DNA of 43,390 nucleotides from Campylobacteraceae bacterium (GTDB lineage Bacteria > Campylobacterota > Campylobacteria > Campylobacterales > Sulfurovaceae). The notes under the pieces are model-generated. The model was not told the origin of the DNA. It ran no database searches and saw only the letters and a program-made list of their open reading frames with translations. The DNA lies in NCBI GenBank assembly GCA_027038295.1, contig JALVXD010000121.1, positions 1 through 43,390 of the forward strand, given 5' to 3'. Position numbers and translations under genes: made by a program. Positions 20,163 to 22,261 of the stretch are shown here, one piece after another (positions within the stretch are counted from its first letter, which is position 1; the number at the start of each line of letters is the position of its first letter).

Positions 20163-20320
20163 CTTCCCTGATAAAAAGCTATATTAATTTATATTAATTG
20201 TTTTTATTATCATTTGTAGGGCTTTTAACAGAGGATATTATAAAGTATAGAATAAGATTATGTTTTTTATATATTTCTTTTAAAATACCGTAATTCTTAT
20301 GTTTTAGAGTATCTATTTGC

Positions 20321-20326
20321 TATAAT
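20321..20326 (+). promoter_or_regulatory. Strong -10 box for the small RNA
   Basis: TATAAT in TTTGCTATAATACTTACATG has a TG one base upstream (extended -10). Initiation about 6-8 bases downstream would fall at the foot of the first hairpin of the RNA. Confidence 0.65.
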
Positions 20327-20331
20327 ACTTA

Positions 20332-20456
20332 CATGAGAGTCATTCATTTTTTCCCTTTTTTTGAGGCTCTCATACGATAACTTTTAATTTCATAAACTTT
20401 AACTCTTTCCCCTTTTTTCTAAATAGAAACGGTTAAAAGTTATCTTCTCTTTTTTC
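20332..20456 (+). ncRNA. Candidate small RNA with two C/U-rich loops
   Basis: The 362-bp gap 20163-20524 has no gene but contains a complete small-RNA unit. After the TATAAT at 20321, AUGAGAGUC (20333-20341) pairs with GGCUCUCAU (20365-20373). UCA (20344-20346) pairs with UGA (20362-20364), leaving a 15-nt loop made only of U and C (UUUUUUCCCUUUUUU). A second, perfect 12-bp stem follows, GATAACTTTTAA (20376-20387) with TTAAAAGTTATC (20433-20444). Its 45-nt loop contains CTCTTTCCCCTTTTTTCT. The tail TTCTCTTTTTTCTTTC (20445-20460) makes this stem an intrinsic terminator. The layout, about 125 nt, suggests a trans-acting RNA that binds purine-rich ribosome binding sites. It matches no RNA family I recognise. 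Confidence 0.68.
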
Positions 20457-20488
20457 TTTCAATTTACAATATACTCACATAGTTTGGT

Positions 20489-20524: not shown

Positions 20525-22261
20525 TTGAAACATCTTATTGATTTTATAGAGGCTAAAACAGTTTCTAAAGCCAAAATATTTAAACACCTGAATGCTACTT
20601 CACAAGAGGCAAAAATACTTCAATACATCTGTCGTCGTTTTGTTAAAGGAATAGAAGAGACAGCTGTCTTAGATATTTTACAAGATAATTTTGAGTATGA
20701 GGGGTATGATTATTTAGCTTATCTTTCTATGGTTAAAAAACTTATGGATATGGGTTGGATAGTACAGGTAAGCTTTGGTCAGGTTCAAGTACAAGAGGTT
20801 TCTCAACTAGAACTACTTAATACTTCAGTTGGACCCAGTATGAGTCTCCTCCGTCTACTTGAAGAGGGTTCATTAGAGATATCCTTACCCGATATAAAGC
20901 CCTATACAGACCATTTAGAGTACCTACAAGACCAATTTGATGTCATAGAGCTTTCACACAAAATGTCTGTAAAAAAACAGGGTTTTTCTGATAGCTCATT
21001 AAGTATAGGTCGTTTAAAAAATAAACTAGTCCTTTTGACTCAACGTATTGTAGAACGACTAAAAATCACCAAAGAGCCTATAGTAGTAGAGGAGTTTTTT
21101 AAAGAGAAGAAGTTTGATGAGAGAGAACAGAGAATCTTTTTAGCTCTACTTAAAGAGGAGTATTCAGGAGGAGAAGGGCAGTTCCGTGATATGAATACAC
21201 TTATAGAACTTATCTCTCTTGATGAGTATGATAAGATTCGTAACCGTGCTTTGCTTGAAGATGGTTCTCGCTTGATTTCCGATAAAATCATTGACTATGA
21301 AGAGATACTCAATATGTTTGGAGGAATTAGCCGTTCTTTTTACTTACAAGAGGATGTACTGCAAAAAATTATTCATCCCAATAAAAAGAAAAAAGTTACT
21401 AAGTTAAAACTGGACAAACTTATAGAAGAGCAGGAGCTTTTTGAGTACTTAAACCCAACCACTGACCTAAGTGATGTGGTACTTCACCCAAAGACCAGAG
21501 AAGTACTCAATACTGTCATAAAACAGGTCGATAAAGATGTTTTTGCAAAGTTAAAGGCTTGGGGTATTAAAAGCAAAAGAAAAGGGATAGATGCCCGTAT
21601 TATTTTCTATGGAGCTCCTGGAACGGGTAAAACCATGACAGCTGTCTCTTTAGCTAAAACACTTAAACGTCCTATTTTGAGTTTTGATTGTTCTAAAATT
21701 TTATCTATGTATGTTGGTGAGAGTGAAAAGAATGTTCGTAAGATATTCGATGAGTTTAAAGCTTTAAGTAAAAAAGCAAAAGTTGACCCTATTTTATTGC
21801 TTAATGAAGCAGACCAGTTTCTAAGTAGCCGAACAGAAGGAGCAGGGAGTTCAGCCGATAAAATGCACAACCAAATGCAAAATATCTTTTTAGAACAGAT
21901 AGAGCAGTTTGAGGGGATACTCATAGCCACAACGAACTTACTTGACAATATAGATAAAGCCTTCTCAAGACGTTTTAATTACAAAATAGAGTTTAAAAAA
22001 CCAGGTAAAAGAGAGAGAAAACGACTTTGGCATTTTATGTTGCCTGAAAATGCAGATTATGATGAAAAACTAGATGTTGCAGAACTTTCTAAGTATGCGT
22101 TAACAGGTGGACAAATAGACCTTATTATAAGAAATACAGCCTATAAAGTAGCCGTTAGAGAGGAAAGTGTCTTTACGTTAGAAGATTTTTTAGAAGAGAT
22201 AGAAAAAGAGCTAGGCTCTAGTTTTGAAAGTGAAGGTAAGAGTATGGGGTTTAAGGTTTAA
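20525..22261 (+). CDS. Classical AAA-family ATPase with N-terminal helical domain
   Basis: The start is TTG with a strong GGAGGAG (20514-20520). Residues 1-320 are mostly helical and match no domain I know. The AAA module follows: Walker A GAPGTGKT (363-370), then LLLNEADQF (427-428 in the Walker B slot, Asn in place of the usual Asp), an IATTNL sensor-1 region, SRRFNYKIEF (arginine-finger region) and TGGQIDLIIRN (sensor-2 region). The Asn-Glu variant occurs in other bacterial AAA proteins and need not abolish ATPase activity. It is probably a cytoplasmic hexameric remodeller. The small 22264 gene follows by 2 bp and shares its transcript. The substrate is unknown. Confidence 0.85.
   Translation: MKHLIDFIEAKTVSKAKIFKHLNATSQEAKILQYICRRFVKGIEETAVLDILQDNFEYEGYDYLAYLSMVKKLMDMGWIVQVSFGQVQVQEVSQLELLNTSVGPSMSLLRLLEEGSLEISLPDIKPYTDHLEYLQDQFDVIELSHKMSVKKQGFSDSSLSIGRLKNKLVLLTQRIVERLKITKEPIVVEEFFKEKKFDEREQRIFLALLKEEYSGGEGQFRDMNTLIELISLDEYDKIRNRALLEDGSRLISDKIIDYEEILNMFGGISRSFYLQEDVLQKIIHPNKKKKVTKLKLDKLIEEQELFEYLNPTTDLSDVVLHPKTREVLNTVIKQVDKDVFAKLKAWGIKSKRKGIDARIIFYGAPGTGKTMTAVSLAKTLKRPILSFDCSKILSMYVGESEKNVRKIFDEFKALSKKAKVDPILLLNEADQFLSSRTEGAGSSADKMHNQMQNIFLEQIEQFEGILIATTNLLDNIDKAFSRRFNYKIEFKKPGKRERKRLWHFMLPENADYDEKLDVAELSKYALTGGQIDLIIRNTAYKVAVREESVFTLEDFLEEIEKELGSSFESEGKSMGFKV

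Follow-up and report, generated by a model that had tools for sequence, protein, structure and literature searches.

The window (the whole stretch of 43,390 nucleotides analysed) is one of the 293 contigs of a Sulfurovum-like genome from the Campylobacterota, and the element considered here sits between an ORF of 257 amino acids, for which no family match was found, and an AAA ATPase gene (20525-22261, Pfam AAA), on the same strand as the latter and 70 nt 5' of it. Most genomes of the genus keep this linkage of RNA and AAA gene. The ATPase itself shows a weak match to the anti-phage ATPase IteA (107 bits vs a cut-off of 510) and carries a winged-helix region. The initial annotation had described an extended -10, two stems, the first with a 15-nt loop of U and C only and the second a perfect 12-bp helix, and a U-rich tail; all of these are present in the sequence and its predicted fold (Table 1). 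The description is correct and even understated, as it extends neither to a nested hairpin, P3, nor to the five other copies that this genome contains. The P2 helix closes around 45 nt, which include CTCTTTCCCCTTTTTTCT at 20403-20420, and the stretch of 140 nt folds at -23.3 kcal/mol (z = -4.35), a value reached by 0/200 dinucleotide shuffles. Covariance models built from 26 copies (R1) and from 87 copies (R2) match the window copy at 20331-20454 with 109.8 bits and with an E value of 4.9e-12, respectively.

Table 1. Features of the element and its promoter, in window coordinates
Feature	Position	Strand	Basis and remarks
Extended -10, TGCTATAAT	20318..20326	+	Sequence; TAnnnT at this fixed place in 109/109 copies examined, TGnTAnnnT in 42
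Predicted small RNA	20333..20456	+	Putative ends: start near 20332, end within the U-rich tail
Stem P1, 5' arm, ATGAGAGTC	20333..20341	+	Fold; covariation
P1 loop, UUUUUUCCCUUUUUU, 15 nt predicted, U/C only, putative anti-Shine-Dalgarno seed	20347..20361	+	
Stem P1, 3' arm, GGCTCTCAT	20365..20373	+	Fold; covariation
Stem P2, 5' arm, GATAACTTTTAA	20376..20387	+	Covariation
Single-stranded pyrimidine-rich stretch inside P2, UUUCAUAAACUUUAACUCUUUCCCCUUU	20388..20415	+	U[CUA]AUA near the 5' end in 77/87 copies
Nested hairpin P3, UUUCU-AAAU-AGAAA	20416..20429	+	Arms 20416-20420 with 20425-20429
Stem P2, 3' arm, TTAAAAGTTATC	20433..20444	+	Covariation
U-rich tail, TTCTCTTTTTTCTTTC, possible intrinsic terminator	20445..20460	+	Sequence; not conserved in orthologs

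The element belongs to an sRNA family that had not been catalogued before and that has at least six copies in this genome. With R2, six copies were identified in its own genome (C121, which is the window copy, C90, C16, C106, C124 and C160); below these, a clear gap follows, and no seventh copy appears up to E = 5. A DNA search detected related sequence throughout the genus, the second copy of the same genome being 81% identical to the window element. The family is present in 33 of the 34 genomes of the genus, with up to ten copies per genome, and in eleven genomes of the sister genera g2 and g10, with one or two copies each. Among 399 genomes of the order, only two matches were obtained outside the family, at E values of 0.04-0.05 in one other family, and they look unlike the family members. 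Orthologous copies stay in place across species. The gene downstream of a copy is one that we take to be nrdB-like (encoding NrdB, the beta chain of a class I ribonucleotide reductase) in g2, in parts of g10 and in some members of the genus, and the site upstream of this gene is possibly the ancestral place of the family. Closely spaced or tandem pairs of RNA genes, each with its own promoter, were noted at L153, L158, L162, L164, L170, L198, L200 and L264-L266. In addition, an insert with sequence of the AACCTGAGTTCGACGGAAT type and a MITE-like look separates the RNA (510-649) from the AAA gene (986) at L047, and such sequence lies upstream of the RNA at L044. The Rfam scan proposed in the initial annotation, which had recognised no known family, agreed with it: at the gathering score no family was reported for the window or for the loci with the other copies, and the permissive search up to E 10 returned chance hits only. 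Neither a Sulfurovum sRNA family nor a report of the present one was found in the literature searched.

Comparison of the copies, another of the checks proposed, supports the predicted structure, as both stems covary and are conserved across dozens of genomes. In an alignment of 87 copies, which was fitted to the model and is hence biased towards its structure, 96.4% of cells pair and 19 of the 22 pairs are changed on both sides; double changes occur in seven of the nine pairs of P1, the outer two pairs being counted among the nine, and in 12 of the 13 pairs of P2. Double-changed cells number 274 in this set, as compared to 67 in shuffles, and sliding of the pairing partners abolishes the signal. 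A structure-free MAFFT alignment of 26 copies scored above every shuffle in four of the five measures, and covariation was seen in the sets of 26, 71 and 87 copies. At the position of P3, a hairpin of at least 4 bp is found in 69% of copies vs 30% in shuffles. As G-U pairs (174) far outnumber A-C pairs (9), the latter being what G-U pairs become on the opposite strand, the RNA is assigned to the plus strand; a minus-strand RNA with its own Shine-Dalgarno (SD) sequence and ATG was also considered and is ruled out by this asymmetry. The prediction of a new small RNA is thus borne out by covariation, strand asymmetry, the promoter, the independence of the loci and the absence of an Rfam match; for its putative transcription, the support is the conserved promoter. 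Within the window class, that is, the copies grouped with the window copy, column identity reaches 95% in the core of the P1 loop (18 copies), similar to the stems, and is 76% in the P2 interior and 51% in the tail. Many orthologs have no U-run 3' of P2, and the 3' end is therefore uncertain.

Besides the -10, two types of upstream repeat were recognized. A direct repeat CACRAT/ACAC with 11-bp spacing occupies a fixed place over the -35 in 81 of 109 copies vs 1.5 expected in shuffles, and the copies of g10 carry TTCAC-N6-TTCA forms of it; the DccR box of C. jejuni is reportedly wTTCAC-N6-TTCACw. Across five genomes, the combination of a CACRATY-N3-ACAC box with a -10 occurs 40 times, as compared to five times for the reversed pattern, and about half of the occurrences precede RNA copies. 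Other sites precede genes that we presume to encode small cytochrome c-like (L214, L218, L220, L233), SoxY-like (L217, L229) and helix-hairpin-helix (L213, L235) proteins. The presence of the paralog-type box before genes of energy metabolism suggests a putative response-regulator regulon. The copy C124 of the same genome directly precedes an operon in which the genes for a response regulator (OmpR type) and a histidine kinase (ArsS family) are joined (L238:2235-4273); this operon was considered as the regulator of all copies, which is not supported as a general rule, the linkage being shared by few genomes.

The window class is devoid of the CACRAT/ACAC box. In 20 of 24 of its copies, a repeat resembling TTTAAG-N5-TTTAAG, which is the consensus of H. 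pylori HP1043 (PMC5253667), is located at -67/-68. The window copy and the two relatives closest to it do not carry this repeat, and the window copy thus has neither box. Near matches to the repeat (21 vs 10.8 in shuffles) are a weak signal because the regions are AT-rich; more weight lies on the fixed position, which in part reflects shared ancestry. A AATAAGATT block is conserved about 80 nt before the RNA in the window class, upstream of the HP1043-like box, and is found in the window copy as well.

The initial annotation had proposed that this RNA, with its two C/U-only loop tracts, acts in trans on purine-rich ribosome binding sites, and computational evidence on conservation, start-site preference and pairing over about 17 nt upholds the first loop, while the second, which is less conserved, found no such backing. 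The P1 loops bind start regions better than coding sequence by 1.44 kcal/mol vs 0.45 for shuffled loops, the start sites having been selected partly by SD strength in the same way for real and shuffled loops. The preference goes beyond composition for 40 of 41 loops (p 1.8e-12, a value that overstates independence as the loops are related), and CUCC, UCCC or UUCC is contained in 82 of 87 P1 loops. For the P2 stretches, no start-site preference beyond composition was detected (p 0.58). A reading of the P2 stretch UUCAUAU...CUCCC as a combined anti-SD and anti-AUG bait was likewise abandoned, as UCAUA occurs in just 40 of 87 copies and start sites are not preferred. For loop 1 of the window copy, start sites of its own genome offer perfect pairing over about 17 nt; the complement of this loop, AAAAAGGGAAAAAATG, often serves as a start site in genomes of the genus, and in the same genome this sequence or a near form precedes the genes for proteins of 171, 302 and 356 amino acids, with predicted duplexes of -21 to -25 kcal/mol. 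Sites of the form AAAAAGGGAAAA-ATG precede many unrelated genes. A single target conserved in all species was not found from these sites, and the idea of one conserved target was rejected, as the genes differ between genomes and only some related species share one. For these reasons, the pairing could partly reflect a generic anti-SD composition. Hfq was not found in seven genomes, whereas five of the genomes used as controls did yield one. Translational repression through loop 1, common to the siblings and presumably exerted by pairing in the cell, is thus the most likely function.

Other explanations account for parts of these observations. An RNA that titrates a protein, either an RNA-binding protein or a nuclease, via its conserved loops and without pairing to mRNA would fit the extreme conservation of the P1 loop, the presence of multiple copies, which is typical of titrating RNAs such as CsrB, and the conservation of U[CUA]AUA in the P2 stretch, where start sites are not preferred. 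However, the plus-strand loops contain 4-5% G, which makes CsrA binding of the GGA type very unlikely, and a titrator would not be expected to have a first loop that favours start sites more than its composition explains, so that this explanation appears unlikely. The location of the window element, on the strand of the AAA ATPase gene 20525-22261, 70 nt from it and with conserved linkage, together with a tail that resembles a weak terminator in orthologs, would also be expected of a 5' leader or attenuator of this gene. Nevertheless, the orthologs have a TATAAT before the AAA gene, which outside the genus is present without the RNA, and, among the 66 copies for which a downstream neighbour lies in reach, this neighbour is convergent in 42; the last observation indicates that the family is not a leader, and for the window element itself this role is considered quite improbable.

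It is far less plausible that the copies are a structured mobile or selfish intergenic repeat of the MITE or REP kind, even though several occur per genome and some are in tandem: they are divergent and yet retain stems, loop and promoter, they are found at orthologous loci across species, and unsystematic inspection brought up neither terminal repeats nor target duplications. The product of a short ORF, MRVxxFFPFF on the plus strand or MKLKVIV on the minus strand, is barely credible. While an ATG is located at the predicted RNA start and some copies show an SD-like stretch before an ATG on the minus strand, the plus-strand frames from the 5' ATG range from 1 to 35 codons with none conserved, the minus-strand frame ends after two codons in 16 of the 28 copies with a start, and the compensatory changes track pairing.

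The explanation that we favour, and regard as probable, is a multi-copy family of trans-acting anti-Shine-Dalgarno sRNAs that repress translation with the pyrimidine loop of P1. In this model, RNAs of about 110-150 nt would display the loop on the 5' hairpin P1, and the long 3' hairpin P2, which holds P3, would probably shield the RNA and end the transcript. The loop, UUUUUUCCCUUUUUU in the window copy and CUCCUC or UUCCU in paralogs, would pair with purine-rich ribosome binding sites of the AAAAAGGGAAAAAAUG type and thereby block translation, and several siblings, each with its own promoter, may hit common targets and so switch off sets of genes. Most paralogs are probably under the control of an OmpR-type response regulator at the TTCAC-N6-TTCAC-type repeat over the -35, whereas the window class has a strong extended -10 promoter with most orthologs putatively under an HP1043 (HsrA)-like box. 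A broader scenario, which is possible and put forward tentatively, is that an ancestral sRNA upstream of the nrdB-like gene, under a TTCAC-type response-regulator box also found before the SoxY-like genes and those for cytochrome c-like proteins, gave rise in one genus to up to ten siblings, and that a part of these siblings came under an HsrA-like regulator instead. The family might then be the principal RNA branch of response-regulator signalling in those Sulfurovaceae that lack Hfq, and one anti-SD loop would slow translation globally in a manner coupled to energy status.

The family bears on how sRNAs act without Hfq or ProQ in Campylobacterota. It supplies a structure supported by covariation, a rise in copy number from one or two to a maximum of ten, promoters of two classes, and candidates for the seed as well as for specific target sites, and such features make the evolution of sibling sRNAs and Hfq-free anti-SD regulation directly testable.

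Among known sRNAs, the family appears to be a new one of a known functional kind, most like LhrC in its proposed action and also similar to RepG and CJnc190, with homology detected to none of them. CJnc190 of Campylobacter jejuni, from the same phylum and with a mode of action similar to that proposed here, has one locus, is counteracted by the antisense RNA CJnc180 and undergoes processing by RNase III, and the parts of its published account available to us (PMC8687705) do not describe a multi-copy family such as the present one. RepG of Helicobacter pylori, a species without Hfq, is described as a single sRNA locus whose C/U-rich terminator loop binds a homopolymeric G-repeat in a leader (PMC8295292); phylum, C/U-rich loop and a host in which Hfq was not found are shared, whereas, as compared by description, the present family has a 5' loop as the likely seed and, in most genomes of the genus, several copies, and the neighbour genes of the window element differ from the hp1043-hp1044 type of the RepG locus. 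The five LhrC copies of Listeria monocytogenes (LhrC1-5) depend on LisRK and act on the SD through redundant UCCC sites (PMC4132741), and the six siblings in the genome of the window, with UCCC-type pyrimidine loops and a proposed anti-SD action, resemble them most closely. LhrC belongs to another phylum and, as the present family is without an Rfam match, its model is not matched either. All LhrC copies are driven by LisRK; in the present family, a shared direct-repeat box is present in 81/109 copies. The present family is distinguished by a covarying P2/P3, a start-site preference confined to the 5' loop and two promoter classes.
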